This document shows positions 3-35,866 of a DNA stretch of 50,377 nt, piece by piece. The notes under the pieces were generated by a model. It searched no databases. It was not told the DNA's origin and saw nothing but the letters and a program-made list of their open reading frames with translations. The stretch is taken from positions 1 to 50,377 of the forward strand of contig CALXKU010000019.1 in assembly GCA_944389025.1 (NCBI GenBank), in the 5' to 3' direction. The stretch comes from an uncultured Spirochaetaceae bacterium. GTDB lineage: Bacteria > Spirochaetota > Spirochaetia > Sphaerochaetales > Sphaerochaetaceae. The position numbers and the translations under genes are program-made. The stretch's first letter is position 1; the number at the start of each line of letters is the position of its first letter.

Positions 3-563
3 GCCGTTGACCACAGGCATGAAACCTCACGCCTGCCGCTTGCTAAGCGGATTTACTCTGCCCCTTATGGGCGCACAGAAAACATGATTAAGAACATGCA
101 TTGCGATGTTATCTGGACCTGCTGTGGAACAGCTGGACTAGGAGGACTTCAGGCGTGTCAGCTTAATAATGCATATGGAATCGGTGTTGATTCGAATCAG
201 GACAGTGTTTATCCAGGCTATATCGTGACATCAGCAATTCGTGACAATTCTTCTCTTATCGAATTCTATGTTCAGAAATATCTGGATGGAACGATAGAGC
301 AGACTGAACCGGATGTATTCAACCTCTCTAATGGTGGCGTCGATATCACTGATATGAGCGTAATAGCAGAGTATGTCACGAATGAGGAGAACTTCGAGGA
401 ACTGAAGACTATCATTCAGGATTGCAAGGACTGGATCGCAGATGGAACCATTGAGGTTTTCGATGCGAGACTTGCGAGTGTGGAAGCTGATGGACAGCGT
501 CTGGACGACTGGATTGCCACATCAGGTAAGTTTGTAACATATGATGAACTGAAAAACATGTAA
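3..563 (+). CDS. BMP-family ABC transporter substrate-binding protein, C-terminal part (cut by window edge)
   Basis: This is the C-terminal portion of a basic-membrane-protein (BMP/Med) type binding protein, the periplasmic receptor of nucleoside ABC importers. The frame is open from base 3, so the gene starts upstream. The segment around CDVIW followed by a Gly-rich stretch, then IGVDSNQD and VTSAIRD, matches the family pattern of a GADVIF-like strand, IGVDxDQ and a TSxxKD-like motif. Residues just before the first internal ATG (base 84) also fit the family, so that ATG is not taken as the start. It is followed by the ATPase and two permeases that it would feed. The ligand, by family knowledge, is probably a nucleoside or purine. 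Confidence 0.85.
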   Translation, partial: AVDHRHETSRLPLAKRIYSAPYGRTENMIKNMHCDVIWTCCGTAGLGGLQACQLNNAYGIGVDSNQDSVYPGYIVTSAIRDNSSLIEFYVQKYLDGTIEQTEPDVFNLSNGGVDITDMSVIAEYVTNEENFEELKTIIQDCKDWIADGTIEVFDARLASVEADGQRLDDWIATSGKFVTYDELKNM

Positions 564-589
564 CAGCTGATGCTGGTGCCTGGTGGAAG

Positions 590-611
590 CTGCAGGAGTT
601 TTCTCCTGCAG
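590..611 (+). promoter_or_regulatory. intercistronic hairpin
   Basis: A perfect 9-bp inverted repeat (CTGCAGGAG and its complement, 4-base loop) lies between the binding-protein stop and the ATPase gene. No T-tract follows, so it looks less like a strong terminator than like an mRNA-stabilising or attenuating hairpin. This is a common way to make more binding protein than ATPase or permease. The effect is inferred. Confidence 0.6.
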
Positions 612-641
612 TGACCATCCCTTTGAGGAGGTTACAGGTTT

Positions 642-2219
642 ATGGGATCCATTCTTATAGAAACAAGAGACATAACAAAGAAATTCGGAGACTTTACAGC
701 AAATGATAAGATTAATATTGCTGTTGAGGAAGGGGAAATCCGGGCAATCATAGGTGAAAATGGTGCAGGAAAATCCACTCTTATGAACATGCTGTATGGC
801 ATCCTGAAACCAACAAGTGGCGAGATCCTGTTCAATGGAAAGCCTGTAATTCTGGATTCCCCACTCGATGCGATAAAGCTCGGAATAGGAATGGTTCATC
901 AGCATTTCAAGCTATCCCCATCCCTATCCATATATGAGAATATCGTATTAGGGGATGAGACCGTAAAGACTCTGAATGTTTTTGGAAAGCATTTCAAAGG
1001 ATTTCTGGTAGACCAGAAAAAGGAAATGGCGGAGATTCAGGCCCTTGTCGATAAATTCAATTTCAATCTTGATATTACTGCCAAGGTCCGGGATATCTCA
1101 ATCGGAGCAAAACAGCGTGTAGAGATTCTTAAGATGCTTTACCGCAATGTCAATCTACTTATTCTTGATGAACCTACTGCAGTTCTGATTCCAAGTGAGG
1201 TTGAGGATCTGATAGAAAGGATGCAAGACCTTAAAAAGGCCGGTAAGACAATAATAATCATAACGCACAAACTAAATGAAGTAAAAATGTGTGCGGATAA
1301 TATCACCGTCATAAGAGGTGGCAGGGTCATAGGTACTGTACGTAATGATGAAAGTACGACAGATTCTGATCTTGCTGAAATGATGGTAGGACGTCCTGTT
1401 CTTTTAAGAGTTAATAAAAGTGACAAAAAACCAGGAGATAAGGTAGTCTATAGGGTTTCCAACCTGAGTGCGAAAGACTCTGATGGAAAGAAGATAATCA
1501 ATGACATCTCCTTCGATATACATGAGAATGAAGTAATTGGAATCGCAGGTGTTGAAGGTAACGGGCAGACGGATCTGATGCTTGCCCTTACGGGGTTACT
1601 GGATATCTCGGAAGGTAGTGTAAGCTTCAACGGGGAGGATATTACAGGACTGTGGCCTGATGAGCTGAGACGACATAAGATAGGTATCGTGCCTGAGGAC
1701 AGATATCGTCAAGGTCTTTGCCTGGGTATGCCTGTATCTGCGAATCTTATCGCAGGAATGCATGGTCGGTGGCCATTCTGCGTTCACGGCATAATGCAGA
1801 ATGCACCTATAAAAGAGAACAAGGAACGGCTCGTTGAAGCTTTCGATATCCGTCTTGGCTCTGATGATCCACCGGTAGGATCCCTTAGCGGTGGTAATGC
1901 TCAGAAGGTCATAATTGCAAGGGAATTCAGTAAGCATCCGCAGCTTTTGCTGGTAAGTCAGCCTACACGAGGTGTGGATATTGGTGCTATCGAGTTCATA
2001 CACAATGAAATTTTACGTATGAGAGATAAGGGAGCCGCGATACTGATTTTCTCATCCGAGCTATCAGAGGTTGTTGGATTGTCCGACAAGGTTTATGTCA
2101 TGTACAAAGGGGAATTCGTAGGAATTTTTAAATCCGATGACGTGTCATTTAATGAACTCGGGCTCTATATGTCCGGCGTAAAGAGAATGTCTAAGGAGGA
2201 AATAGCAGCAAATGGCTAA
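642..2219 (+). CDS. nucleoside/simple-sugar ABC transporter ATP-binding protein (two ABC domains)
   Basis: A 525-residue cytoplasmic ATPase with two fused ABC domains, as in the NupO/YufO/RbsA group. In domain 1 Walker A GENGAGKST is at residues 38-46, the Q-loop is at Q87, and Walker B reads LLILDEPT. Domain 2 has a degenerate Walker A (GVEGNGQT), signature LSGGNAQK and an altered Walker B ending in SQPTRGVD. This asymmetry, with one active and one degenerate site, is normal for BMP-linked nucleoside importers. The start has a GAGGAGG Shine-Dalgarno about 12 bases upstream. The end overlaps the permease gene by 8 bases, indicating coupled translation. Confidence 0.93.
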   Translation: MGSILIETRDITKKFGDFTANDKINIAVEEGEIRAIIGENGAGKSTLMNMLYGILKPTSGEILFNGKPVILDSPLDAIKLGIGMVHQHFKLSPSLSIYENIVLGDETVKTLNVFGKHFKGFLVDQKKEMAEIQALVDKFNFNLDITAKVRDISIGAKQRVEILKMLYRNVNLLILDEPTAVLIPSEVEDLIERMQDLKKAGKTIIIITHKLNEVKMCADNITVIRGGRVIGTVRNDESTTDSDLAEMMVGRPVLLRVNKSDKKPGDKVVYRVSNLSAKDSDGKKIINDISFDIHENEVIGIAGVEGNGQTDLMLALTGLLDISEGSVSFNGEDITGLWPDELRRHKIGIVPEDRYRQGLCLGMPVSANLIAGMHGRWPFCVHGIMQNAPIKENKERLVEAFDIRLGSDDPPVGSLSGGNAQKVIIAREFSKHPQLLLVSQPTRGVDIGAIEFIHNEILRMRDKGAAILIFSSELSEVVGLSDKVYVMYKGEFVGIFKSDDVSFNELGLYMSGVKRMSKEEIAANG

Positions 2220-3306
2220 AGATAAAAGTGTTAATAGGCTGATTTCCATTGGAAACATAGTAATCCCTCTTATCCTTGCATTTATAGTGGGTAGCATATT
2301 TTCCATCCTGTCCCGTTGCAATCCATTCACTTTGTATGGGTATATCATAAAGCGGGCGTTCTTCTCTGTCGGCGGGATTCTGAATACGCTGGGCTATGCG
2401 ACTCCGATTATAATGACAGGGATTGCTACTGCATTCTCCATAAAGGCTGGAATCTTTAACATGGGAATCGAGGGACAGGTGTTCGTAGGTGCCTTCACTT
2501 CAGCTTTAGCTGGATACATGATAAAAGGCCTTCCCGTATTCATACACGTTCCACTCTGTCTTCTTATCGGTGCTCTCTCTGGTGCCTTATATGCACTTGT
2601 CCCTGGCCTTTTAAAGGCAAAACTCAGAATCAACGAAGTTGTTACTACAGTTATGATGAACAGCATTGCAACACAGGTTACAGGATTCCTTACCCAGAGC
2701 TATCTGAGCACTGGAGATGCGTATGCTCATACGGAGTTTATACTTGAATCCGCACGATTATCAAAATTCATATCGAAATATCGTTGTACAACCGCTATTT
2801 TCATAGCTCTGGCCATATGGCTTGTCATCTATTTCGTTCTGAAGAAGACTAAGTTCGGATACGAGATTGAATGTATCGGCAGGCAGTGGGAATTCTCAGA
2901 TTCTGTTGGTATGCGAGTAAGTAGGAAGGTGATAATAATTTTCGTTCTTGGTGGTTTGATTGCAGGTGTTGCCGGAGCAACTGAGATAATGGGTGTGAAT
3001 TATAATTTCGTAAGCACATTCTCCGCCAATCCTGGGATTGGATGGGATGGTTTTTATGCCTGCATTCTTTCTGCCAGCAATCCTGTTGGAATATTGATTT
3101 ATGCTATTGTTTTCGGAGCCTTAAGATATGGAGCACTGGCCGCTCAGACCTGGCTAGGTGTGCCTCTTGATTTGATAAATGTCATAAAGAGTACACTTGT
3201 GCTTTTCGGAGCTATCAAGCTGTGTACCGTTTATAGCGAGCAGATAAAGGGCTTCTTCTTCAAGAAAAAAGCTGTCAAAGCTGAACATCAGGCACAGGAG
3301 GTATAG
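2212..3306 (+). CDS. nucleoside-type ABC transporter permease 1
   Basis: A 364-residue, very hydrophobic membrane protein of the branched-chain-amino-acid/ribose type permease family (BPD_transp_2), resembling NupP/YufP. It contains many transmembrane segments and the family motif NMGIEGQ near residues 83-89, in the loop typical of BMP-system permeases. It starts inside the end of the ATPase gene (8-base overlap) and is followed by the second permease after two bases. It would form a heterodimeric channel with that protein. Confidence 0.92.
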   Translation: MAKDKSVNRLISIGNIVIPLILAFIVGSIFSILSRCNPFTLYGYIIKRAFFSVGGILNTLGYATPIIMTGIATAFSIKAGIFNMGIEGQVFVGAFTSALAGYMIKGLPVFIHVPLCLLIGALSGALYALVPGLLKAKLRINEVVTTVMMNSIATQVTGFLTQSYLSTGDAYAHTEFILESARLSKFISKYRCTTAIFIALAIWLVIYFVLKKTKFGYEIECIGRQWEFSDSVGMRVSRKVIIIFVLGGLIAGVAGATEIMGVNYNFVSTFSANPGIGWDGFYACILSASNPVGILIYAIVFGALRYGALAAQTWLGVPLDLINVIKSTLVLFGAIKLCTVYSEQIKGFFFKKKAVKAEHQAQEV

Positions 3307-3308
3307 TA

Positions 3309-4238
3309 ATGGATCTGTTTCTTTCTTTACTTAACATGACGGTCGAAGCTTCCGTGCCTTATCTACTGATTACGATAGGTGGTGTCTTTGTTGCAAGGGC
3401 AGGTGTCTTTAACATATCGATGGAGGGATGTACCGAGTTTTCAGCGTTTGCCGGCATTCTTTTCACATTTGTAACAGGTAAGATATGGGTCGGTGTTATC
3501 TGCTCGATTCTTCTAGCACTGTTTATTAATTTTGTATTTTATATTTTTACTGTAAAGCTGAACGGTAATCTCAGTGTTGTTGGTACGGGAATAAACCTTA
3601 TGGCGGCATGCATTCCTGCCAGTCTGCTTTCAGCTCTCTTTTTCACAAGGTCAAATCTGATTGCTACGAATATCATAAACCCCGCGGATATGATGTACGA
3701 TGTTCCAATCCTGAGAAGCATCCCGGTCCTAAGTGATATTCTCAACAGACAGACACTGATCACATATCTGACACCGTTTATCGTTTTTGGTCTCATTCTT
3801 GTCATGTATAAGACCAAATTCGGAATCTATGTTCGTGTGACTGGTGAGAATCCGAGTGCAGCTCAGGCCGTAGGAATAAAGACAAACCGTATTAAAATGT
3901 ACTGTCTGCTTATTTCTGCTGTAACATGCGCTTTAGCGGGTCTCAACCTTTCTGTGGAAAAGCTCGGCATGTATACGATAAACATGTCTGCCAACAGGGG
4001 ATTCATCTGTCTCAGTGCCATAAACTGTGGACGAAAAGAGCCTGGCAAGGCGTGCATCTATGCTCTTATATTCGGTTTTGTTCGCGCTCTACAGACCATT
4101 ATCAATAATTTTGTCCCTGTGGCGATATCCTCCCTCTTGGGAATCATGCCATATGTGGCAATCATCGTTGTACTTCTCATCGTGGAGATTCCGAACGCGA
4201 GAAAGAATCATTTGAGATGTTTCAGGGATCTTGCCTGA
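3309..4238 (+). CDS. nucleoside-type ABC transporter permease 2
   Basis: A 309-residue multi-spanning permease of the same superfamily, resembling NupQ/YufQ. An early ISMEGC motif corresponds to the N(I/M)(G/S)xEG motif of partner permeases. An EAA-like cytoplasmic loop with GENPSAAQAVGI occurs around residues 178-189. It completes an ATPase/permease/permease set with the binding protein at the window start. The next gene begins 15 bases on with its own SD, so the transporter and the enzyme genes form one transcription unit. Confidence 0.92.
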   Translation: MDLFLSLLNMTVEASVPYLLITIGGVFVARAGVFNISMEGCTEFSAFAGILFTFVTGKIWVGVICSILLALFINFVFYIFTVKLNGNLSVVGTGINLMAACIPASLLSALFFTRSNLIATNIINPADMMYDVPILRSIPVLSDILNRQTLITYLTPFIVFGLILVMYKTKFGIYVRVTGENPSAAQAVGIKTNRIKMYCLLISAVTCALAGLNLSVEKLGMYTINMSANRGFICLSAINCGRKEPGKACIYALIFGFVRALQTIINNFVPVAISSLLGIMPYVAIIVVLLIVEIPNARKNHLRCFRDLA

Positions 4239-4253
4239 TCTTAGGAGGTTTAA

Positions 4254-4841
4254 ATGTCTAAAACGGCTGTACTCGTAATCGATATGCAGAAAGACTTCAC
4301 GGAGCCGGATGGAAAATTCTATTACCCGGAGACGACGGGGGCGATGCTTGATACTTTCTTTGAGAAAATTGATGAGATGAGAAGGCTTGGTGCGCTTATC
4401 GTGTATGTCTATACCGTTCATCCAGAGGATGAGAGGGAAGTCAATCCAGAGCTTACAAGGATGTTCAGAAACGGGAAGAAGGCCTCATTGGTCGCGGGAA
4501 GCAAGGGGAGTGAGCTTGATGACAGGATAAAAGTGCTTGATGGGGATATCCTTTTCAGAAAGTATGTTCCAAGCGCATTCTTTAAGACCAATCTCGATGA
4601 GGTTCTAAGGAGCAAGGGAATTGAGAATGTGCTTATCTGCGGCGTGAAGACAAACGTGTGCTGCAGGGCAACCGCGACTGACGCGTATAGTCATAAATTC
4701 AGAACATTCATGATCTCTGACATGCTTGGTACCAACACCAAGGCCATAAATGATTTCCATCTTGAAGAGATGACAAAGTACTTTGCGAAAGCGATTTCCT
4801 CTGATGAGGCTATCCGCCGTCTTAAGGAGGGTGTTTTCTAA
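4254..4841 (+). CDS. isochorismatase-like cysteine hydrolase
   Basis: A 195-residue member of the isochorismatase/nicotinamidase superfamily. The expected Asp-Lys-Cys triad is visible as D10 (VIDMQKDF), K103 (FRKYVPSAF) and C136 (KTNVCCRAT), with a second Cys following the nucleophile. These enzymes hydrolyse amides, N-carbamoyl compounds or vinyl ethers, and the substrate cannot be read from sequence. It follows a nucleoside importer and overlaps the next gene by one base (TAATG), so a role in breaking down the imported compound or its released base is a reasonable inference. SD AGGAGG precedes the ATG. Confidence 0.88.
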   Translation: MSKTAVLVIDMQKDFTEPDGKFYYPETTGAMLDTFFEKIDEMRRLGALIVYVYTVHPEDEREVNPELTRMFRNGKKASLVAGSKGSELDDRIKVLDGDILFRKYVPSAFFKTNLDEVLRSKGIENVLICGVKTNVCCRATATDAYSHKFRTFMISDMLGTNTKAINDFHLEEMTKYFAKAISSDEAIRRLKEGVF

Positions 4842-5812
4842 TGGGCAGATTCAACTACACCGTAATAGGAACAGCGGCAACCGTATCCGTACTCAAGGTT
4901 GAAAGCATGCCTGAGAGCGGCAAGTCCACACCTGTATATTCCGGTTCGATCTGTGAATATGAGAATGGTGGGATGGGGCTGAACATATGCGCGGCTCTTG
5001 CCACTCTTGATCTGGCTGTCTATCCTGTCCTTACTTATGCGGATATAAGGCAGAAAACGTTTCTCTATGATTTCTGCAGAAATTTCAACCTGCCGGAAGA
5101 TGGGATAATGGATCCTCCCGAATGCTCTTATGGGACGACGATAATGATTCAGGATTCCTGTAAGAATCATATGACGCTGATTACCGATTATGAACATAGG
5201 AGGCCTGGAAGCACATTTTTCTCCGTGCAGGAAATAAAACCTGAGTTCCTTAATAGCTCTGATTTCATCATACTTACCGCTCCGATGCCATGCAATTCAG
5301 ATCCCATGATTGATGCGATCATCAGGAGCTCTAAGCCTTTAGCGCTTTCAATGAGAAAGGACAGCAATGCTTTTCCTCACGATATGCTATGGAAGGCTCT
5401 GACATATTGCACTTTACTTTTTGGAAATGAGGTTGAGATGAGTTATATTGAAGCAGAATTCAATCTTGACTCATATTTGAGCCTGTTTTCCGTATCTCCT
5501 TCTCTCAAACATATTATTATGACGCGTGGAGGGCGCGGTAATTCCGTATTCTCGAGAAACAAGGATGGAGGAATTGAGGAAATACGTACGATTGCTGTGG
5601 AACCGGAAAGTGATTGTATCTATTCAGTCGGCGCTGGGGATGGCTTTGTCTCCGGTTTCATGTACGGGCTGGCAAAAGGGCATTCAATCAAGGATTGTTC
5701 GCTTCTTGGAAGCACGCTCTCTTCTTTTGTCCTGGAAGATGAGGGGAGCATAACGAATCTGCCGACAGAGGCGAGACTGCTTGAAAGGTTTTCAAAATGG
5801 AGGGAAAAATGA
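4841..5812 (+). CDS. PfkB-family (ribokinase-like) carbohydrate/nucleoside kinase
   Basis: A 323-residue small-molecule kinase of the ribokinase/PfkB family. The C-terminal signature VGAGDGFVSGF carries the anion hole and catalytic base (G264-A-G-D267). The N-terminal region has a substrate-lid-like GGMGLNICAALA segment. Family members phosphorylate ribose, nucleosides, pseudouridine or other sugars, and the exact substrate is unknown. The gene is coupled on both sides, by TAATG with the hydrolase and ATGA with the BtpA-like gene. The setting suggests it traps the sugar part of an imported nucleoside. Confidence 0.88.
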   Translation: MGRFNYTVIGTAATVSVLKVESMPESGKSTPVYSGSICEYENGGMGLNICAALATLDLAVYPVLTYADIRQKTFLYDFCRNFNLPEDGIMDPPECSYGTTIMIQDSCKNHMTLITDYEHRRPGSTFFSVQEIKPEFLNSSDFIILTAPMPCNSDPMIDAIIRSSKPLALSMRKDSNAFPHDMLWKALTYCTLLFGNEVEMSYIEAEFNLDSYLSLFSVSPSLKHIIMTRGGRGNSVFSRNKDGGIEEIRTIAVEPESDCIYSVGAGDGFVSGFMYGLAKGHSIKDCSLLGSTLSSFVLEDEGSITNLPTEARLLERFSKWREK

Positions 5813-6597
5813 GCTCAGCATTCGAACTGGTCAAAGGAAATAAACTTATTATTGGAATGGTGCACTGCTTGCCGCTTCCAGGAACGATCCGATCAAATAA
5901 TACTATCGACGATGTTATCGAACGTGCGGTCTCTGATGCGATTGTGATTGAGAAAAGCGGGTTTGATGCCCTTATTGTGGAGAATGAGGACATGTGTGTT
6001 GCCCGTAATCTTTCGAAAATGCAGTTTGCTTCAATGAGCATTGTCATAAATGCAGTAAGGCAAAATGTGAGCATTCCTATTGGAATTTCTTTAGGCTGTC
6101 TTAATTATGAGGAGGCGCTTGCAATAGCGGCTGTGGTTCATGCGGATTTCATAAGGACACCGGTCTTCGTGGATACTTTGCTCAATTACAATGGAATCAT
6201 TCAACCATGCAGTACATCAGTCATCAATTACAGGAATATGATAGGTGGAAACTCGATCAAGATTTTTGCTGACATACAGGTAAAGCATTACCATATGCTG
6301 AAAGATATTGACATCTGCGAGTCGGCTGCGTGGGCGGAAAAACAGGGCGCGGATGTGATTATCGTAACCGGGGTATCGACAGGGAAGGAGACGAAGAGCA
6401 GTGATCTTGAGAAGGTTTCAAATGCATGTGGTATCCCAGTTGCGGTAGGAAGCGGAATAACCGAGGAGAATATAAAAGAAAAGCTTAAGTACGCGGATAT
6501 TCTTATTGTTGGCACTTCCATAAAAGTTGATGGTAAGCTGAACAAGCCTGTTGATGCACATAAGGCTAAGAGGATTATCAACTCAGCTCGAATCTGA
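5809..6597 (+). CDS. BtpA/SgcQ family TIM-barrel protein
   Basis: This gene encodes 262 residues of the BtpA family, to which E. coli SgcQ (a putative nucleosidase) also belongs. The N-terminal GMVHCLPLPGT is the family hallmark, and later ADVIIVTG and VAVGSGIT look like phosphate-binding strands of a TIM barrel. The start is set at 5809: its ATG overlaps the kinase stop as ATGA and has GGAGGG 5 bases upstream, whereas the in-frame ATG at 5797 would contain that SD. BtpA was named for photosystem biogenesis, which is irrelevant here. An enzymatic role on the imported substrate is more likely. Confidence 0.85.
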   Translation: MSSAFELVKGNKLIIGMVHCLPLPGTIRSNNTIDDVIERAVSDAIVIEKSGFDALIVENEDMCVARNLSKMQFASMSIVINAVRQNVSIPIGISLGCLNYEEALAIAAVVHADFIRTPVFVDTLLNYNGIIQPCSTSVINYRNMIGGNSIKIFADIQVKHYHMLKDIDICESAAWAEKQGADVIIVTGVSTGKETKSSDLEKVSNACGIPVAVGSGITEENIKEKLKYADILIVGTSIKVDGKLNKPVDAHKAKRIINSARI

Positions 6598-6610
6598 TGG
6601 AGGTGATGTC

Positions 6611-7759
6611 ATGAAGTATAATAAACTTGGAAAGACTGGATTTGAAGTATCAGAGATAGGTCTTGGTGGTGAATATCTCGAGGGAAAGGATTTTCCATTA
6701 GTGAATGATGTCGTATCTGCGGCATTGGATGGAGGCATTAATATTCTTGATTGTTTCATGTCCAATCCTGATGTCAGATCGAATCTAGGAAAGGCATTGA
6801 AAGGCCGAAGAGATAGGATACTCATCCAGGGCCATATGCGCTCGATATGGAAAGATGGGCAATATGCCCGTACGCTAGATATTAAAGAAGTTGAATTCTT
6901 CTTTCAGGATCTGCTGAAAAGATTTCAGACCGATTATATCGATATCGGCATGATTCATATGATTGATAACGCGGAGGATTATGATGCGATTTTCTCCGGC
7001 CAAATCCTGGATTATGCCGTAAGGCTTAAAGAAAAAGGTGTCATAAGATCCCTTGGAATTAGTTCCCATAACCCGATTCAGGCTCTGCGTGCGGCAAAAA
7101 GTGGCGTAATAGATACCATTCTTTTCAGCATAAATCCTGCATATGATCTTCTTTCAGAAGATGCGGAGAGGCCAAAGAAACTTGATAATACTTTTTTCAG
7201 AGATAAGGATGCTCTCAGCATAAACAGCGTGCGTAATGATTTTTACCGGTATTGCGCTTCCCACGAGATTGGACTGACCGTGATGAAGACATTTGCGGCT
7301 GGAGCATTGCTTGATGAGCGGACATCGCCATTTTCGGAGGCGATGACTCCTCAGCAATGCATGAGTTATGCGCTCTCACGTCCCGCGGCCTCCAGTGTGA
7401 TGATTGGGATGCAAAGTGTGAAGGAGGTTGAGGATTGTCTTTCATATGAGAGTATGGGGGATGATGAGAAGGATTATTCATTCATCTTTTCTTCCTTGCC
7501 ACGTTTCTCAATGAATGGGCGCTGCGTGTATTGCAACCATTGCCTTCCCTGTCCTGCGCATATCGATATCGCACAGGTTGGAAAATATCTTGATATGGCA
7601 CTTCTTGATGGAACGCCTTCCCCGACAATAAGGGCGCATTATGATTCTCTGGAACATAAGGCTGATGAGTGTCTGAGTTGTCATGCATGTGAGAAAAGGT
7701 GTCCATTCGGAGTGAAAATCGTAGAACGTATGTCGCTTGCGAAACGTATTTTCAGCTGA
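6611..7759 (+). CDS. aldo/keto-reductase-like protein fused to a 4Fe-4S ferredoxin domain
   Basis: This gene encodes 382 residues: an AKR-type TIM barrel of about 300 residues and a C-terminal ferredoxin domain with two Cys clusters, CxxCxxCxxCP and CxxCxxCxxxCP. SD GGAGGTGAT fixes the ATG at 6611. The usual AKR Tyr and Lys are not where expected: after the conserved Asp the sequence reads CFMSNPD, and the position of the Lys reads IQGHM, while the His of the HM motif remains. Similar divergence is known in a clostridial subfamily. It may be an iron-sulphur redox enzyme rather than an NADPH reductase. It is the last gene of the operon. Confidence 0.87.
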   Translation: MKYNKLGKTGFEVSEIGLGGEYLEGKDFPLVNDVVSAALDGGINILDCFMSNPDVRSNLGKALKGRRDRILIQGHMRSIWKDGQYARTLDIKEVEFFFQDLLKRFQTDYIDIGMIHMIDNAEDYDAIFSGQILDYAVRLKEKGVIRSLGISSHNPIQALRAAKSGVIDTILFSINPAYDLLSEDAERPKKLDNTFFRDKDALSINSVRNDFYRYCASHEIGLTVMKTFAAGALLDERTSPFSEAMTPQQCMSYALSRPAASSVMIGMQSVKEVEDCLSYESMGDDEKDYSFIFSSLPRFSMNGRCVYCNHCLPCPAHIDIAQVGKYLDMALLDGTPSPTIRAHYDSLEHKADECLSCHACEKRCPFGVKIVERMSLAKRIFS

Positions 7760-7770
7760 TTATAGTATTG

Positions 7771-7801
7771 CTGACTGATAGGGGATTTCCTTATCAGTCA
7801 G
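7771..7801. terminator. bidirectional hairpin terminator
   Basis: A perfect 10-bp inverted repeat (CTGACTGATA and its complement) with an 11-base centre lies between two convergent genes. It covers the stop codon of the minus-strand gene. It would stop transcription from both sides. Confidence 0.75.
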
Positions 7802-9443
7802 ATGTACTTATACAGTACGCACCTTTTTTATAGAACGTCACACAGTATTTGAAGATTCTGTATCTGCTGAAATCGGAGGCATATTTTTTATCCTCAATTT
7901 GCAGGATTCCTTCATGCAGTTTTTTCTCAATGCTGTTTTCTGTTTTTGCTATCTTGAACTCGAATACAGCTACCCTTTTGTTATTGATATCGATGATTAG
8001 CAGGCCTGAACGTCCATTCCCTCTTTCTCGATTTGAGACACCCCTGTATTTTGTGGCAGAAAATAATCCGGTCACAAAAGCGTGGTAGAAGCTTTCCGAA
8101 TAATCATAGTAGCTGATAGCCCTTTCCAGATAATCAGAAAGTATGCTCCCAATTTTTTTGGTATCACCATTCCAGATCGCATTGAAAAGTTCGGAGAGAT
8201 TTTCACTTCGCATTCTTTCCTGAAACCAGGAGTTGACCGCACGTATGAATAGTTGTCGAATTTCTTCGTTTGGAAGTTTTAGACATATCTCTTCGTTTGG
8301 TCTGTATTTATCCGCAAGAGTGAGATATCCTGTCGAGAGCATCAATGACCAGATATTGTTGTCATTGGAGTACATGTCTTTGTAGGTGAGATCTTCTGAG
8401 ATGATCTTCGCTATGTATCCTCCATTGATTAATGTGCTGTAATCATCGTAGATGTTGATATCAGCATGATTGATGAATTTTCTAATGATAGTGTTGCCAC
8501 TCGTATTTGCCCAGTAATTATCTGGTAGTGCATTCTTATCACTCATGAGATCGTTTATGTAAGAAAGCATATCCCATGGAGCATAGATTGACTCTCCGGC
8601 AATATTATAACCATCGTACCATCTTTTTATATCGCTCGCTTTATTGCTAACGTTATAGTAAGCGAGCAGTCGGCTCACTTCATTTTCAGTGAAGCCAAAG
8701 GCATCTGAGTATTTTGCACCAGTAAGTGAGTAGACTGTCATGTTGTTAAGTCCTGTAAAAAGGCTTTCCTTTGATATCCTGAGACAGCCTGTGAGAATTG
8801 CCTTTTTCACATTCGGATTATCTTTTAATATGGACAGCATTGAGTGCATCACATCAATCATCTGGCTGTAATAACCATTCGCTTCCGCCTTAGCAAGGGG
8901 AACGTCGTATTCATCTACGATTATTATTACACCTTTATGATAATGAGCACTGATAAGGCGAACTATAACTGACAGGGAACGTCGTATGTCAAGATCTGTA
9001 ATCTCTCCAGAAAGCATTCGGCTGAGAAATGATGCATCCGCTTCAACAATGTCGTCCTCAAGGAGAAAACGGTACTCAGAAAATAAATCCTGAACTATGC
9101 CTTTCAGAATTGATAAGGCGTTCTCGTAATTCAAGCCATCAACATCTTTAAATGATAGGAAAATAACAGGATAACAATTCATCCAGCTTTCGACCGTTTC
9201 CTTATCATTCATTATGCTTAAGCCTGTAAACAGAGAAGTATTGCTTTTTCTTATATCGAAGAAAGCTTCAAGCATCGTTTGCAGTGTGGTCTTGCCGAAT
9301 CTTCTTGGCCTAGTGAACAGGATTATTTTGCCATTGTCCCTTACAATCTGTCCAATGACATGAGTCTTATCAACATAGTAATTCCCTGATTCACGTATTT
9401 CTGTAAAATTCCCTGTTCCGACAGGCAGTTTAAGCATTTCCAT
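7794..9443 (-). CDS. AAA-ATPase-like / PD-(D/E)XK nuclease-domain protein
   Basis: A 549-residue protein of the family with an N-terminal AAA-ATPase-like domain and a C-terminal PD-(D/E)XK nuclease-like domain, widespread in Bacteroidetes, Clostridia and spirochaetes with no settled function. Walker A is RPRRFGKT at 45-52, and Walker B is IIIVDEYD. The nuclease-like core is visible as D485 in LLIID and E495-x-K497 in FEFK. The stop lies within the terminator hairpin shared with the upstream convergent gene. The start ATG has no SD and sits 6 bases below an extended -10, suggesting a leaderless message. Confidence 0.88.
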   Translation of the reverse strand: MEMLKLPVGTGNFTEIRESGNYYVDKTHVIGQIVRDNGKIILFTRPRRFGKTTLQTMLEAFFDIRKSNTSLFTGLSIMNDKETVESWMNCYPVIFLSFKDVDGLNYENALSILKGIVQDLFSEYRFLLEDDIVEADASFLSRMLSGEITDLDIRRSLSVIVRLISAHYHKGVIIIVDEYDVPLAKAEANGYYSQMIDVMHSMLSILKDNPNVKKAILTGCLRISKESLFTGLNNMTVYSLTGAKYSDAFGFTENEVSRLLAYYNVSNKASDIKRWYDGYNIAGESIYAPWDMLSYINDLMSDKNALPDNYWANTSGNTIIRKFINHADINIYDDYSTLINGGYIAKIISEDLTYKDMYSNDNNIWSLMLSTGYLTLADKYRPNEEICLKLPNEEIRQLFIRAVNSWFQERMRSENLSELFNAIWNGDTKKIGSILSDYLERAISYYDYSESFYHAFVTGLFSATKYRGVSNRERGNGRSGLLIIDINNKRVAVFEFKIAKTENSIEKKLHEGILQIEDKKYASDFSRYRIFKYCVTFYKKGAYCISTSD

Positions 9444-9518: not shown

Positions 9519-10196
9519 TCAATCCAGATACTGTTTGTAAATGCTCGACTGGGTTTCCGTATTGGTAGAGTAGAATGATTCAAGAGCTGCAAGACGGCAA
9601 TGATCTATATGTTCGCTGAGCTTCATTCCCGCTTCCTCATATTCCTTCTTCAAAAGCAGGTTTATTATTTCCAGATGTTCTCTTCTTGATTCGTTCACAT
9701 GAAGCTGGTTTTCCTTGCTCGCTATGATGATTCTTGTGTTCTTATCAAATACTGAATGCATCATATCGATAATGAAATTATTACGGCAGTTCTCTACGAA
9801 ATACATGTGCATCGCGGTATCCAGCTTGTAGCCGCTCATGTAGTCATCGGTATCTTTAGAAAACCGTGTTTTAAAATCAAGAAGGACGTCGTTATCCAGA
9901 TTCGCACGGCCCATTTTCAGAGCTACAGGCTCAATTTCCTTTCTTGCCTGAAAGATCTGCATTATCTCATTTGCCGTGATAGCCGACACGTATATTCCCT
10001 TTTTAGGTATGATGTGCAAAAAACCCTGTCTTTCAAGCTGGATTATTGCCTCCCTGGTCGGGGTACGGCTACATCCAAGCTCCGCTGCTATCTGTGCCTC
10101 GTTGAGTACGGAATTGGGCGCATATTCACAGGTAATCAACCTCTGCTTGATTTTTTCATAGACATAATCCGTTAAACCTGCATTCTTTTTTGCCAA
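9519..10196 (-). CDS. GntR-family transcriptional regulator (FCD/FadR subfamily)
   Basis: A 225-residue DNA-binding regulator. The winged helix-turn-helix spans about residues 31-72 (LNEAQIAAELGCSRTPTREA and a wing ending IIPKKGIYVS). It is followed by an all-helical FCD ligand-binding domain carrying typical Asp/His metal-ligand positions. The start codon is TTG, with GAGGTG about 8 bases upstream. It is divergent from the cupin/lyase/ABC operon, and palindromes lie on both promoters in the gap. It probably represses that operon and itself, and is relieved by a small organic acid, but the ligand is unknown. Confidence 0.9.
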   Translation of the reverse strand: MAKKNAGLTDYVYEKIKQRLITCEYAPNSVLNEAQIAAELGCSRTPTREAIIQLERQGFLHIIPKKGIYVSAITANEIMQIFQARKEIEPVALKMGRANLDNDVLLDFKTRFSKDTDDYMSGYKLDTAMHMYFVENCRNNFIIDMMHSVFDKNTRIIIASKENQLHVNESRREHLEIINLLLKKEYEEAGMKLSEHIDHCRLAALESFYSTNTETQSSIYKQYLD

Positions 10197-10208
10197 TTTC
10201 CAGCACCT

Positions 10209-10229
10209 CTTGTATGTTACAAGTATACT
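10209..10229. promoter_or_regulatory. putative GntR operator on its own promoter
   Basis: Two overlapping palindromes, CTTGTA-TGT-TACAAG (10209-10223) and AGTATACT (10222-10229), cover a minus-strand -10 (TATACT) paired with TTGCTT 16 bases upstream. Autoregulation is inferred. Confidence 0.5.
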
Positions 10230-10370
10230 AGATATTAATAAAAAAGCAAGAACTATTTCTATTTTTGAAAGAATTTAAAAATATGGTATCCAAAACTAAA
10301 CAAGTTAACTTTAAAAATAACGTAATAATTATAAATATAATAAGGAAAAATTATCGGAATTAAATTCTTC

Positions 10371-10409
10371 TTGACAGGTGGAATATTGTGAGTTATGTTG
10401 TATACAACA
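10371..10409 (+). promoter_or_regulatory. promoter with overlapping palindromic operator
   Basis: TTGACA (10371-10376) and TATGTT (10394-10399) are 17 bases apart. A perfect 14-bp palindrome TGTTGTATACAACA (10396-10409) covers the -10 and start region. Its GTATAC core is shared with the palindrome at the regulator's own promoter, which fits an FCD-type GntR repressor. The cupin gene begins about 50 bases downstream. The rest of the 10197-10459 gap is A+T-rich with no gene. Confidence 0.65.
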
Positions 10410-10459
10410 GGTAGATATCCTGAATCTAACATGCAGTACAGAAGATGAAGGAGTATTCA

Positions 10460-10810
10460 ATGGTTCGAAGTGGAAATGATGTGACAAAAGAAATGTTCGA
10501 GCATCGATTCGGTGGTGATGGCTCAATTATCGTGGAGACCCTCAATGCCGATAATAACGAGCTCAATGGAAAGGGAAGGGTATTCGCCCATACCACGATA
10601 CAGCCCGGCTCTTCAATCGGCTATCACGAACATCATGGGGAATCTGAGATTTATTACATACTCTCAGGGGTCGGTGAATTCAATGACAACGGTAATAAGA
10701 TTCCAGTATCCGCTGGAGACGTTACCTACACCTTCTCCGGAATGGGACATGCGATAAGGAATACCGGTAATGCTCCGCTGGAGGTTATGGCACTGATACT
10801 TTTTGAATGA
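10460..10810 (+). CDS. small cupin-domain protein
   Basis: A 116-residue single-domain cupin. Motif 1 is visible as GSSIGYHEHHGESEIYYILSG, giving His, His, Glu metal ligands, and motif 2 as the region with FSGMGHAIRNTG, giving the last His. Such proteins bind metal and act as isomerases, lyases or sensors, so the function here is open. SD AAGGAG lies 6 bases before ATG 10460, which is preferred over the in-frame ATG at 10445 that precedes that SD. It is the first gene of the GntR-linked operon. Confidence 0.85.
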   Translation: MVRSGNDVTKEMFEHRFGGDGSIIVETLNADNNELNGKGRVFAHTTIQPGSSIGYHEHHGESEIYYILSGVGEFNDNGNKIPVSAGDVTYTFSGMGHAIRNTGNAPLEVMALILFE

Positions 10811-10828
10811 AACAGAAGGAGAAACAAT

Positions 10829-11755
10829 ATGCTGTACGATAAACCACATAACAAAAAGGGATTTCTGGAACTCATGGCAGACCATACCGTAGTTGCGCCA
10901 TGTGTTTATGATTGTGTTTCTGCAAAACTTTGTGAGGAGGCAGGTTTTGAAGCGATGTGCTTATCCGGAGGGGAGCTTGCTGCATCACTCTGTGGATTTC
11001 CCGATATAGGCCTCGTCACGCAGGATGAGCTTGTTGGTGTTGTTGAACGAATTTCATCTTGTACCGAGATTCCTATGATTGTTGATATTGATACGGGATT
11101 CGGAAACGAGATTAATCTTATACGTACATGTAAAAGAGTAGCTCATGCAGGAGCGAAAGCGGTGCACCTGGAGGACCAGACTTTTCCTAAAAGATGCGGG
11201 CATCTCAAAGGTAAGACCGTCATACCAAGAGAAGATTACATTTCGAAGATAAAAGCCGCTGCATTCGCTCTTGAAGGCACAGGATGCATTCTTATTGCCA
11301 GAACGGATGCTTATCACACTCTTGGTTTAGACGAGGCGATTGCAAGATGCAATGAGGCAATAGATGCAGGAGCCTCAGTTTCATTCATAGAGGGGTGTGG
11401 TTCTCTTGAAGATATTGAATATGCGGGAGGAAAAGTAAAGGGTCACAAAATGTTTGCAATGCTTGCAACCGGGGCCAGTCCCGCGGTGACATATGAACAG
11501 TGTGTTGCTTGGGGATATAGTCTTGTCACCCTGCATTGCGGAATGCGTGGGGCCATACGTGGGATGAGAGAGTGTTATGCACGTGTTTTTGAAAAGAAGA
11601 GCGATATTGCTCTTTTTGACCTTCCGCCAGTTGATCCAAAGTATGCAGGAAGCGGGAAGGGGATGTTTGAGATGTTTGGATTAAATGAATGGCTGGAGTT
11701 AGGAAAACGATTTAATCCTAAAATTGAGATCGCGGAGCATCTTCACTCTAAATAA
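10829..11755 (+). CDS. isocitrate lyase / PEP mutase superfamily lyase
   Basis: A 308-residue TIM barrel of the PEP mutase/isocitrate lyase family, which includes methylisocitrate lyase, 2,3-dimethylmalate lyase and oxaloacetate decarboxylase. Magnesium-binding acids are visible at D86/D88 (VDIDTGFG) and E115/D116 (HLEDQ), with the family loop KRCGH at 121-125. The Cys in this loop is the usual catalytic residue of lyase (C-C cleaving) members, so C-C cleavage is favoured over C-P chemistry. It follows the cupin by 18 bases. It probably splits a 2-hydroxy-dicarboxylate-like compound taken up by the neighbouring transporter. That substrate is inference. Confidence 0.87.
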   Translation: MLYDKPHNKKGFLELMADHTVVAPCVYDCVSAKLCEEAGFEAMCLSGGELAASLCGFPDIGLVTQDELVGVVERISSCTEIPMIVDIDTGFGNEINLIRTCKRVAHAGAKAVHLEDQTFPKRCGHLKGKTVIPREDYISKIKAAAFALEGTGCILIARTDAYHTLGLDEAIARCNEAIDAGASVSFIEGCGSLEDIEYAGGKVKGHKMFAMLATGASPAVTYEQCVAWGYSLVTLHCGMRGAIRGMRECYARVFEKKSDIALFDLPPVDPKYAGSGKGMFEMFGLNEWLELGKRFNPKIEIAEHLHSK

Positions 11756-11780
11756 TTGGAATCAGAAAAAGGAGGAGAAT

Positions 11781-13352
11781 ATGAAAAAGGTTTTATGCGT
11801 CATTTTATTATGTATGTTACTTATTCCTGCTTTTGCTGGAGGTGGGCATGAGACAAAGGAGGCAAGCCCAGCTTTTGAACCAGAAAGCAGATTTGGAGGG
11901 ACTCTTGTAATTGGCACAACGGCGACTGTCAGTTCTTTGAGCACCGTTGATATGCGAGGAACAGATCAGTTTTTCGAGAACCTTTTATATGAGCCTCTAT
12001 TGACAGTTGGCCCCAATGGAACGATTGTTCCTGTTTTGGCAGAGTCTTATAGTGCTGATCCGGAGTCATTGACATATACATTCAAACTCAGACAAGGTGT
12101 TAAATTCCATGATGGCTCAGATTTTAATGCCGAGGTTGCGAAATGGAATCTTGAGTATTACAAGGAAACAGGGGTATACGGTTCATCATATGTTGGTGTA
12201 ATAGATTCAATTGAAATAATCGATGATTACACGATAGTGTTACATCTATCCTCATGGGATGCCTTCCTTCCTGTAGCGTTAGCTCGTGGTGGTGGAGCGA
12301 GCTACATGATGAGCAAGCAGGCTTTTGATACTTATGGTGCGGATTATCTGAAGAGGCATCCAGTATCCACATCTCCTTTCATGTTTGAGAGCTGGACAGA
12401 TGGAGAATCAATTAAATTGGTCAAATTCAAAGATTACTGGAGAGGTGAACCTTATCTTGATGCTGTTACGATTGAGATGTTCTCAGAAGCAATGGTGCTC
12501 CAGGCGGCATTTGAAGCAGGAGATGTTCATATTTTCTCCGTTTCTGATGGTGATATGGCAGCTTATTTGGAAAATAACGGCTATTTCATTCAGAAGTCCT
12601 CATCCCCGTCCATGGCTTATGTCATAGGATTCAATTGCAATGATCCTTCAGATCCTTTCTCTGATGTCAGGGTTCGTCAGGCTGTAAGCTATGCAATTGA
12701 TTCGGATCAGATTGTAAATACCTGTTTTACTTTCAATGGAACAGTTGCAACACAGTTGGATCCTGTTGGAGGTACGTATTACAATGAGAATATAAATCCA
12801 TACGATGTCGATATAGAGAAAGCTAAAGCTCTTCTTGCGGAAGCTGGATATGCTGATGGTTTCACAACTACTCTTACTACGATGAACCAATGGAATCTTC
12901 CTCTTCCTGTGCAGATGATAGCTGAACAGCTTAAGGGAATAGGGATAAATGTGGAGCTTAACATCGTAGAGCGTGCCCAGTTCTTTGTTTTGCAGGATGG
13001 TTGGGGTGCAGAAGGAGGAATGTTTGCATCTTGCTTCTCCCTTCCTGCAGGAGGAGGTAGTCAGATTGCTGCTAATTTCGCACAGAATCTTGGTTCTGCT
13101 TTTGGTCGCACTTCCTTATTGCACCCGGATGATGTCAATGAGCTGATTCAGAAAGCAAAGAATTCCAGTGGAGATGAAAGTGTTGAATACATTAAGAGTG
13201 CAGAGGAGCTTGTTTATAACAAGTATTGTCTGATGAATGTGTTTGCTATGACGAATAACATGACGGCAATTAGCTCTAATGTAATCGATTCTGAATTCGG
13301 TAAGGATACAGGAAGCAGTAATACCCTGTGGAAAGCGTATCTCGTAAAGTGA
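11781..13352 (+). CDS. peptide/nickel-type ABC transporter substrate-binding protein
   Basis: A 523-residue family-5 extracellular solute-binding protein (OppA/DppA type). The N-terminal Lys-Lys and hydrophobic core end in PAFAGGG, a secretion signal without a lipobox Cys. The body has the family features GTLVIGTT, a YEPLL segment and the FKLRQGVKFHDGS motif. SD AAAGGAGGAG places the ATG at 11781. Four transporter genes follow. Ligands of the family range from peptides to sugars, opines and organic acids, and the flanking lyase and crotonase genes suggest an acid. The level of this gene may be set apart by the hairpin downstream. Confidence 0.92.
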   Translation: MKKVLCVILLCMLLIPAFAGGGHETKEASPAFEPESRFGGTLVIGTTATVSSLSTVDMRGTDQFFENLLYEPLLTVGPNGTIVPVLAESYSADPESLTYTFKLRQGVKFHDGSDFNAEVAKWNLEYYKETGVYGSSYVGVIDSIEIIDDYTIVLHLSSWDAFLPVALARGGGASYMMSKQAFDTYGADYLKRHPVSTSPFMFESWTDGESIKLVKFKDYWRGEPYLDAVTIEMFSEAMVLQAAFEAGDVHIFSVSDGDMAAYLENNGYFIQKSSSPSMAYVIGFNCNDPSDPFSDVRVRQAVSYAIDSDQIVNTCFTFNGTVATQLDPVGGTYYNENINPYDVDIEKAKALLAEAGYADGFTTTLTTMNQWNLPLPVQMIAEQLKGIGINVELNIVERAQFFVLQDGWGAEGGMFASCFSLPAGGGSQIAANFAQNLGSAFGRTSLLHPDDVNELIQKAKNSSGDESVEYIKSAEELVYNKYCLMNVFAMTNNMTAISSNVIDSEFGKDTGSSNTLWKAYLVK

Positions 13353-13360
13353 TTATTTAA

Positions 13361-13397
13361 GGGGCTGCCCCAAAGCCTAGACTTTTGCAACAGCCCC
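13361..13397 (+). promoter_or_regulatory. hairpin between binding-protein and permease genes
   Basis: GGGGCTG and CAGCCCC form outer arms, and CAAAG with CTTTTG can form an inner stem. There is no T-tract, so partial termination or 3'-end protection of the upstream message is likely. This would favour excess binding protein. Confidence 0.6.
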
Positions 13398-13410
13398 GAA
13401 TTCAATTAAT

Positions 13411-14361
13411 ATGGTAAAATTCATAATCAAACGTATATTGATTTCATTGGTAATAGTCTTCATGGTTTCGGTATTTGCATTCTTTCTTATGCATATTCTT
13501 CCAGGAGATCCAGTAAGAATTGTTCTGGGAGATGAGGCATCTGTAGAGGATGTGAATGCCTTAAGAGAGGAGCTCCATCTTAATGATCCTCTGATTTCTC
13601 AGTATTTTAAATGGATTAGTGGGATTTTCACGGGGGATTATGGTACTTCCATCACATACATGAGGCCTGCAGGTGAGATTATTTCAGAGCGCTTGCCTAA
13701 GACCGTTTCTATCGGGCTACCGGCTCTTATCATCGCATCTGTAGTTGGAATCGTATTTGGCACAGTCAGCGCTGTAAGACGAGGTTCGAAACTTGATAGT
13801 GCTTTGACTCTGTTATCCACATTGAGCTTGGGCACACCGACATTCTGGATTGGAATACTGCTCATATATGTATTTGCTGTTGAGCTAAGGATATTGCCAA
13901 TGAAAGGATATATGGGGCCTTCTGATGGATTGTTACAGTATTTTAAATACTCAATCCTTCCTGTTTTCTGTCTTTCTCTAAACATGGTGGCTGGTATAAC
14001 AAGGCAAACCAGGACGAATATGCTAGATGTTATAAATCAGGATTATATCAGAACTGCAAGAGCGAATGGTATATCTGAAAAGAAGGTTATCTTCAAGCAT
14101 GCATTAAAAAACGCTCTTATTCCAGTTATCACACAGATTGCGCTTCAGGTAAGGGTAGTAATTGGAGGGTCCGTTATCGTTGAGCAGATATTCAATATAA
14201 ATGGAATAGGGATGCTTTTGCGAGAATCCATTTTTAACAGGGATTATATGATTGTTCAGACAAGTGTTTTCTTTATTTCTCTTGTAACTGTGTTCTGCAA
14301 TCTGGTTGTCGATATACTTTACGGGTTTGTAAACCCTCAGATTAGGAAAAGTGGGTGGTGA
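13411..14361 (+). CDS. peptide-type ABC transporter permease (DppB/OppB-like)
   Basis: A 316-residue inner-membrane permease. It opens with the typical MxxFIIKRILISLVIV first helix and has FFLMHILPGDPVRIVLG. The C-terminal half holds the EAA-like loop RTARANGISEKKVIFKHALKNA. Length and layout match DppB. No clear SD precedes the ATG, which lies 13 bases after the intercistronic hairpin, so translation may be weak or dependent on structure. It partners the DppC-like gene, which begins 5 bases downstream. Confidence 0.92.
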   Translation: MVKFIIKRILISLVIVFMVSVFAFFLMHILPGDPVRIVLGDEASVEDVNALREELHLNDPLISQYFKWISGIFTGDYGTSITYMRPAGEIISERLPKTVSIGLPALIIASVVGIVFGTVSAVRRGSKLDSALTLLSTLSLGTPTFWIGILLIYVFAVELRILPMKGYMGPSDGLLQYFKYSILPVFCLSLNMVAGITRQTRTNMLDVINQDYIRTARANGISEKKVIFKHALKNALIPVITQIALQVRVVIGGSVIVEQIFNINGIGMLLRESIFNRDYMIVQTSVFFISLVTVFCNLVVDILYGFVNPQIRKSGW

Positions 14362-14366
14362 TTGCA

Positions 14367-15224
14367 ATGATTGATAAAATGAAACTTAAAAAGAACCTCC
14401 GAGTACTTTTCGGACGTGGCGTCTTATCTGTGATATGCGGCATATATGTCGTGTTATTTATTTTCATTGCGATTTTTGCTCCTCTGCTTTCCAGATATAC
14501 ACCTACGGAGTTTTGCGGTTCGAAATTTCTTTCTCCCTGTGCGGAATTTCTTTTTGGGACGGATGCTCTAGGACGAGATGTGTTTTCCCGTATTATGTAT
14601 GGGGCACGGATATCTTTCGTAGCAAGTCTGTTATCCAGTGCGATTGGCCTTGTGATGGGAACGACTTTAGGCCTTATCGCTGGATATTTCAAGGGATTTG
14701 TCAGCATGGTGATTATGCGTTTTACAGATGCTATCCTATCTATTCCAGCATTGATTCTTTCTATGGTTCTAGCTCTGCTATTTAAGGAAGGTGGTATCTT
14801 AAGCGTAGGATTTGTAATCGGTTTTACACTCATGTCGAGTTATACAAGAGTTGTTTATGGACTTGTACTTGGAATGAAGGAGAATGATTACATAGTTGCT
14901 GCCAAATTGGTCGGACAAAGCAAGACAGCCATAATATTCAAACATTTCCTCCCGAATTGTTTTCCTTCCCTCATAGTAATGTTTACGATGACCTTAGGAA
15001 ATGCAATTAGTTTGGAGTCATCACTAAGCTTTCTTGGTGTAGGTATCACCCCTCCAACCCCAGCGTGGGGCAGCATGGTTTCAGAAGGATACAAATATCT
15101 TGTGATGAAACCATCTCTAGCTATTCTTCCAGGACTTTTTGTTTTGCTTACTGTCGTTGCTTTCAATGTTGTTGGGGATGGTGTCAGAGATGTACTGGAT
15201 CCAAGACTTAAAGGAAAATTATGA
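14367..15224 (+). CDS. peptide-type ABC transporter permease (DppC/OppC-like)
   Basis: This gene encodes 285 residues with the OppC N-terminal helix, the periplasmic motif FGTDALGRDVFSRIMYGAR and the cytoplasmic loop VAAKLVGQSKTAIIFKHFLPN. ATG 14367 is preferred because GGTGGTGA lies just upstream, although two in-frame GTG codons (14355, 14358) precede it. The stop overlaps the next ATPase start as ATGA. It pairs with the DppB-like protein as the transmembrane channel. Confidence 0.92.
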   Translation: MIDKMKLKKNLRVLFGRGVLSVICGIYVVLFIFIAIFAPLLSRYTPTEFCGSKFLSPCAEFLFGTDALGRDVFSRIMYGARISFVASLLSSAIGLVMGTTLGLIAGYFKGFVSMVIMRFTDAILSIPALILSMVLALLFKEGGILSVGFVIGFTLMSSYTRVVYGLVLGMKENDYIVAAKLVGQSKTAIIFKHFLPNCFPSLIVMFTMTLGNAISLESSLSFLGVGITPPTPAWGSMVSEGYKYLVMKPSLAILPGLFVLLTVVAFNVVGDGVRDVLDPRLKGKL

Positions 15225-17205: not shown

Positions 17206-17206
17206 T

Positions 17207-17962: not shown

Positions 17963-17969
17963 GGATGTT

Positions 17970-18980: not shown

Positions 18981-19073
18981 CTGTAAGTTTTTTATCCCCC
19001 TGGAGGCAAGAACTAACAGCTTCTTACGGATGTTTTACGGGACTTGATATTTTGTTATCTAGAGGTGGTTATT

Positions 19074-20303: not shown

Positions 20304-20383
20304 CTGTTAATTTCTGCTGTAACTCAATAGGACATTCTTCTTATTCATTTAACATTCTAAAACTGATTGTTTGGAGGTTCATC

Positions 20384-21193: not shown

Positions 21194-21236
21194 GCGTATA
21201 CTATAATTTTAAACTGGATATTTCAGGAGGAGAGAA

Positions 21237-32132: not shown

Positions 32133-32154
32133 AGGTCTATAAGAGGTGAGTTTT

Positions 32155-35790: not shown

Positions 35791-35816
35791 AAAAATCCCT
35801 CGGAAGGGGGAATGTG

Positions 35817-35825
35817 TGTTAGAAT
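35817..35825 (+). promoter_or_regulatory. extended -10 promoter of the binding-protein gene
   Basis: TGTTAGAAT lies 42 bases before ATG 35867, identical to the element before the ATPase gene at 32124. The -35 is weak. It would let the binding protein be expressed independently of the permeases. Confidence 0.45.
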
Positions 35826-35866
35826 TTACTCAGGCGGAAGGGCCTGAAAAAAAAAGGAGATTACAT

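Follow-up and report, generated by a model that had tools for sequence, protein, structure and literature searches.

A conserved, putative nucleoside-type uptake and breakdown operon centred on a BtpA family protein in an uncultured Spirochaetaceae bacterium

A conserved catabolic operon

The 50,377-nucleotide stretch of DNA analysed here (the window; contig CALXKU010000019.1, G000:C19, from an uncultured Spirochaetaceae bacterium whose genome is denoted G000) opens with eight genes that form the downstream two thirds of a real, conserved catabolic operon. It appears to be a nucleoside-type uptake and breakdown operon, a known kind, and is centred on the BtpA enzyme family. Literature searches found neither a named pathway with this gene set nor a described reaction for the BtpA/SgcQ family, in agreement with an earlier reading of the letters alone (the sequence-only reading), which had recognised no purine, pyrimidine or pseudouridine operon of this composition.

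All eight open reading frames are co-oriented on the + strand, and their tight coupling (spacing of -8 to +78 bp) and the families assigned to them by the sequence-only reading were borne out by an open reading frame check and by profile searches. The first encodes the C-terminal fragment of a BMP/PnrA-type substrate-binding protein, cut by the contig edge (75–563; PF02608, 47.8 bits). It is followed by the double ATPase of an ATP-binding cassette (ABC) transporter (642–2219; PF00005, ABC_tran) and by two BPD_transp_2 permeases, A (2212–3306; PF02653, 123 bits; syntenic in the genomes G037, G436 and G058 described below) and B (3309–4238; PF02653, 78.5 bits; 97% identical to its G037 counterpart). 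Next come an isochorismatase-family cysteine hydrolase (4254–4841; PF00857, 127 bits), a nucleoside-kinase-like PfkB kinase with a catalytic GAGD motif (4841–5812; PF00294, 68.9 bits against a cutoff of 25.8), a BtpA/SgcQ family protein of the DxxVKH class (5809–6597; PF03437, 215.8 bits against a cutoff of 30), and an aldo/keto reductase (AKR)-like domain followed by C-terminal 2x[4Fe-4S] Cys motifs (6611–7759; Aldo_ket_red and a weak Fer4 match; AKR-Fd below). The BMP and ATPase genes are 78 bp apart, the ATPase and permease A genes overlap by 8 bp, the permease genes are separated by 2 bp, and 15 bp precede the hydrolase gene, which overlaps the PfkB gene by 1 bp (TAATG). The PfkB and BtpA genes share an ATGA overlap, so that BtpA probably starts at 5809 rather than 5797; about 13 bp separate it from AKR-Fd, which starts at 6611 and not at the TTG at 6551.

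Complete copies of the operon are present in related genomes. In G037, a congener (metagenome-assembled genome of an uncultured Spirochaetaceae, contig CALXYM010000001.1), the operon is intact, in the order GntR-UTRA regulator, TrpA-like 1, TrpA-like 2, iron-containing alcohol dehydrogenase (Fe-ADH), BMP, ABC ATPase, permease, permease, hydrolase, PfkB, BtpA and AKR-Fd. G436, from another family of the same class, has the same order through BtpA, with a divergent GntR gene and with AKR-Fd not adjoining the operon. G058 and its congener G603, representing a third genus, carry a rearranged set with duplicated genes: BMP, ABC ATPase, permeases (two), hydrolases (two), PfkB, BtpA, TrpA-like, Fe-ADH, a regulator of the PocR/AraC type, AKR-Fd (two) and further TrpA-like genes. 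The expanded G058 operon (L030, 1253–12540) has four TrpA-like paralogues, two cysteine hydrolases and two AKR-Fd round the same core. Protein identity to the window is 74–97% for G037, 54–74% for G436 and 29–72% for G058; for the ABC ATPase it is 85%, 71% and 66%, respectively, and the BMP fragment is 93% identical over 161 aa to the intact G037 protein.

The complete copies thus have at least four further genes upstream, giving a whole set of about 12. The sequence-only reading had listed the downstream genes correctly; its list lacks the GntR regulator, the two TrpA-like proteins and Fe-ADH, and its first gene is a fragment. These upstream genes are out of view in the window because the contig ends: the window begins at base 1 of its contig, so that the two edges coincide. 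Homology to the intact BMP gene starts only at base 75–76; bases 1–74 are not BMP-like and gave no other match anywhere in the same genome, which rules them out as a copy of another genomic repeat. Elsewhere in G000, the genome search found no close copy of the operon's TrpA-like genes, the best Fe-ADH is only 38% identical, and the BtpA gene is single copy. Either an assembly gap or true absence could account for the lack of the upstream genes in this genome.

With cutoffs of more than 300 bits for BtpA and more than 100 bits for the TrpA-like protein, operon-type BtpA is found among 393 genomes of the phylum in G000, G037, G058 and G436. Of the same 393, only G037, G436 and G058 have the operon-type TrpA-like protein; the G000 copy of the operon stops at the contig edge. 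A class sample of 395 genomes added only G603. The gene set therefore recurs in three genera and two families, answering the sequence-only reading, which had offered failure to recur as grounds for abandoning its proposal. Because the distribution is patchy, it suggests that the operon is a transferable accessory module.

A proposed pathway

Reading from the gene order, the families present and the catalytic residues that they keep or lose, we propose, tentatively and with slightly less than even confidence, that a nucleoside-like compound is imported, phosphorylated on its sugar by PfkB, and then processed by the BtpA and TrpA-like barrels, by amide hydrolysis and by redox disposal. The BMP-type ABC transporter would import a pentose-like sugar carrying a heterocycle or an amide-bearing base, and PfkB would phosphorylate the 5'-OH of that sugar. 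The phosphosugar-binding BtpA and TrpA-like barrels would rearrange or cleave the phosphorylated compound to give a sugar phosphate for glycolysis, and the isochorismatase-type hydrolase would open an amide or ureide in the base part. Aldehydes or ring products would be disposed of through redox reactions compatible with anaerobic life, catalysed by Fe-ADH and the Fe-S AKR-like protein. The sketch in the sequence-only reading was reasonable in outline, incomplete, and probably wrong in its order.

Phosphorylation before the second enzyme has a precedent in PsuK/PsuG of pseudouridine breakdown (PMC9247573). The psuK-psuG pair shares with the operon the pairing of a PfkB kinase with a further enzyme whose substrate would be the phosphorylated nucleoside, but the partner here, BtpA, is of TIM-barrel type, and TrpA-like, Fe-ADH, hydrolase and Fe-S AKR genes are additional. 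A pseudouridine operon can be rejected, as there is no PsuG in the window operon or in the complete copies.

BtpA: fold, motif classes and neighbourhoods

The BtpA protein scores 205 bits with NCBIfam TIGR00259 (cutoff 153); the model for the photosystem I biogenesis BtpA (NF045918) gives 167.7 bits, below its cutoff of 400. It also matches PF00977 (His_biosynth, HisA/HisF) at 25.5 bits, over the 23.6 cutoff, and its C-terminal half has weak matches to solved HPS, HisF and TrpA. An AlphaFold model (two sequences) is of low confidence (predicted local distance difference test score, pLDDT, 56.6) and supportive only; its top Foldseek matches are HisF and HisA. BtpA thus looks like a phosphosugar barrel of the HisA/HisF type. 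The biosynthetic HisA/HisF, TrpF and TrpA proteins are likewise phosphoribosyl barrels, and a TrpA-like protein lies in the same operon, but here the context is catabolic and the first-strand Asp or Cys apparently corresponds to His (H23) in BtpA.

Among 53 non-identical BtpA proteins with labelled neighbours, 24 are near a PfkB kinase, 16 near an FGGY kinase and 13 near neither, most of these 13 having just 1.5 kb of flank. There are several features of note. First, Asp159, Val162, Lys163, Gly218 and Ser219 are present in 24/24 of the PfkB-linked proteins. Second, the FGGY-linked proteins have Asn159 (88%), Glu163 (88%), Asn218 (88%) and Thr219 (94%), the motif also found in SgcQ of the Escherichia coli phosphotransferase system (PTS) operon; one FGGY-linked BtpA (L079) has the PfkB-type motif. 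Third, the second motif type forms one clade with full support in a tree in which the window BtpA groups with the G037, G436 and G058 proteins. Because the correlation of motif with kinase rests largely on this one deep split, it amounts to roughly a single evolutionary event. The sgc operon shares with ours a BtpA-family protein in a sugar-type uptake operon, but a PTS replaces the ABC transporter and kinase, and SgcQ is of the NxxxE rather than the DxxVKH class.

Within 28 genomes of the spirochaete phylum, BtpA lies no more than 3 kb from a PfkB gene at 10 of 31 loci, where about 0.8 would be expected, so that chance adjacency can be rejected; as the loci are partly related by descent, the p-value of this comparison is nominal. 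BtpA is also beside PfkB in haloarchaea, rhizobia, roseobacters, Roseomonas and Pantoea. By raw occurrence, amide and ureide hydrolases often accompany BtpA: amidases, ureidoglycine aminohydrolase, a Zn-dependent hydrolase, phosphotriesterase, glutamine amidotransferase, TenA, isochorismatase-type hydrolases and allophanate hydrolase.

These neighbourhoods also bear on a different explanation, in which the operon's substrate is no nucleoside but some unusual sugar, polyol or glycosylamide, with BtpA serving as an isomerase or epimerase of sugar phosphates. The majority of BtpA loci belong to ribose-type ABC or PTS operons that also encode either RPE-like epimerases together with M29/M42-like peptidases or phosphotriesterases, and a BMP protein without its conserved Lys (see below) would suit such a substrate. 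The BMP importer, the nucleoside-kinase-like PfkB and the amidohydrolase-type hydrolase point the other way, and we regard this explanation as possible but unlikely.

Several individual loci may be recorded here. A different and commoner spirochaete operon comprises DeoR, BtpA, BMP importer, amidohydrolase and FGGY kinase genes; it is complete at L037, L084 and L088 and represented by its first genes only at L019–L021. At L031 (G123:C66), a BtpA homologue with an internal TAA stop, which may be broken or misassembled, is next to an FGGY kinase and a gene resembling, by eye, pyrimidine-nucleoside phosphorylase. Both of these settings speak for the proposed pathway. On plasmid pRLN4 of Rhizobium leguminosarum (L123), BtpA and an FGGY kinase are beside two isochorismatase-type hydrolases and an allophanate hydrolase, which suggests a biuret- or triazine-like base part at that locus.

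The kinase and a proposed order of reactions

The kinase belongs to the PfkB family, and G266-D267 of its GxGD catalytic motif are invariant. Its profile matches best, among solved structures, the MJ0406 nucleoside kinase (2c49; 2e-25), followed by adenosine kinases. MJ0406 of Methanocaldococcus jannaschii is described as a broad nucleoside kinase (Hansen et al., as cited in PMC10248530). With MJ0406 as its nearest solved relative, the operon kinase may act on nucleosides instead of free sugars.

The sequence-only reading had placed glycosidic cleavage by BtpA ahead of phosphorylation. If BtpA or another enzyme did free the sugar first, PfkB would be a sugar kinase of the ribokinase type, and indeed it matches ribokinase models weakly in the NCBIfam search. 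Moreover, the PfkB kinase RikA (STM3547) of a related neighbourhood phosphorylates free ribose in vitro, an activity its authors say is maybe off-target (PMC13432705). The rikA gene adjoins the same phosphotriesterase and glutamine amidotransferase genes as accompany BtpA in rhizobia; this rhizobial and enterobacterial cluster (phosphotriesterase, glutamine amidotransferase, PfkB) shares with our operon a PfkB kinase and amide-type hydrolases and, in its rhizobial form, BtpA, but it is without BMP, TrpA-like and Fe-ADH genes and has a ribose-type ABC or drug/metabolite transporter. Nonetheless, the half of HisF/TrpA-type barrels that binds phosphate is present in BtpA. A phosphorylated substrate for BtpA also fits its neighbours, which are kinases of differing families or a PTS, and among characterised kinases the one closest to the operon's PfkB is a nucleoside kinase. 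Cleavage before phosphorylation is rather improbable on this evidence, and we favour kinase action first, followed by BtpA acting on the phosphorylated compound.

Hydrolase, AKR-Fd and TrpA-like proteins

In the cysteine hydrolase, a PF00857 member, the predicted Asp-Lys-Cys residues D10, K103 and C136 are invariant, and the nearest solved relatives are a cysteine hydrolase, nicotinamidase, N-carbamoylsarcosine amidase and RutB. AKR-Fd has eight invariant Cys in two 4Fe-4S motifs and keeps D47 and H116; alignment to 1ynp shows that, of the tetrad Asp-Tyr-Lys-His, the Tyr is missing and His occupies the Lys position. With the tetrad incomplete, a classical aldo/keto reductase is ruled out: the module does contain an Fe-S AKR, as the sequence-only reading had it, but the protein is not an ordinary AKR reductase.

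The TrpA-like proteins of the complete copies belong to PF00290 and score 41.9 and 77.1 bits with TIGR00262, under its cutoff of 102. At TrpA positions 49 and 60, both acids (E and D) are retained in TrpA-like 2; in TrpA-like 1 the residues are Q and E, so that it differs from TrpA in carrying Gln at the Glu49 position. Elsewhere in the genome (L090, 10571–11353; contig G000:C13), another TrpA-like protein, which has E and D at the catalytic positions, lies in a sugar ABC/FGGY kinase/SorC-like operon, apart from trpBA; this may be a second recruitment of the TrpA fold to sugar breakdown.

The importer and its substrate

A Lys conserved in the BMP proteins BmpD and Lbp has a role in ribose binding. 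In its pocket region the operon BMP retains the Asp of the GVDxxQ motif, with Arg or His in place of this Lys. Like the BMP nucleoside importers PnrA and BmpD, the latter a demonstrated adenosine/inosine-binding protein (PMC7093131), the operon has a BMP protein, a double ATPase and two BPD_transp_2 permeases, and the substituted Lys sets it apart. The complete copy belongs to the BMP family; the "nucleoside importer" of the sequence-only reading stands as a family label and not as a ligand assignment. The absence of the catalytic Tyr and Lys from AKR-Fd, and of the conserved Lys from the BMP protein, suggests that the compound taken up is probably something other than an ordinary nucleoside.

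Models of a putative B6 transporter are the top NCBIfam matches of the ATPase, both permeases and the BMP protein, raising uptake and breakdown of B6 or a flavin as an explanation; the riboflavin transporters RfuABCD (PMC4418817) may also be counted for it. However, scores for NF047927-30 are far under the curated cutoffs (ATPase 423 of 670, permeases 154 of 400 and 110 of 465, BMP 54 of 400 bits), on which ground B6 transport is rejected, and among solved structures related to the kinase, pyridoxal kinases do not cluster with it. We consider B6 or flavin breakdown very improbable.

A second BMP-type importer in the window (32146–37099; ATPase, two permeases and BMP) is without the operon's catabolic enzymes.

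Other features of the window

The gap between the BMP and ATPase genes (564–641, + strand) folds as a strong hairpin (minimum free energy -37.3 kcal/mol, z -4.17), a possible transcript-end or processing signal. At the end of the operon, a hairpin assigned to neither strand (7757–7830; -26 kcal/mol, z -5.63) faces the convergent gene at 7794–9443; no T-run terminator was called there. Another catabolic cluster follows at 9519–22154, with genes for a GntR/FCD regulator, a cupin, a protein like methylisocitrate lyase or phosphoenolpyruvate mutase, a dipeptide-type ABC transporter, an enoyl-CoA hydratase-like protein, an AKR, a major facilitator superfamily transporter, an integrase and a ketopantoate-reductase-like protein.

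Implications

Several points weigh against the proposed pathway. First, some BtpA loci have no nearby sugar kinase. Second, the operon kinase reached no NCBIfam cutoff in the profile search. Third, the ribose activity of RikA means that cleavage first would be allowed. Finally, the substituted BMP Lys makes a plain nucleoside ligand doubtful.

A more specific version would make the operon a catabolic mirror of the tryptophan and histidine barrels: PfkB would form a 5'-phosphoribosyl compound, the HisA/TrpF-like BtpA would carry out an Amadori-type or related opening, the TrpA-like protein a retro-aldol cleavage to glyceraldehyde 3-phosphate, and Fe-ADH would reduce a two-carbon aldehyde. We think this decidedly improbable, but if true it would provide the first reaction for the BtpA family and a new breakdown route for nucleosides or C-linked heterocycles.

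The BtpA/SgcQ family spans archaea, E. coli and cyanobacteria, and our survey ties it to sugar kinases, PfkB with one BtpA motif class and FGGY or a PTS with another, often near amide or ureide hydrolases. An orphan family thereby becomes a directly testable biochemical question, and the operon suggests a hitherto unrecognised pathway, probably anaerobic, into which TrpA-fold enzymes have been recruited.

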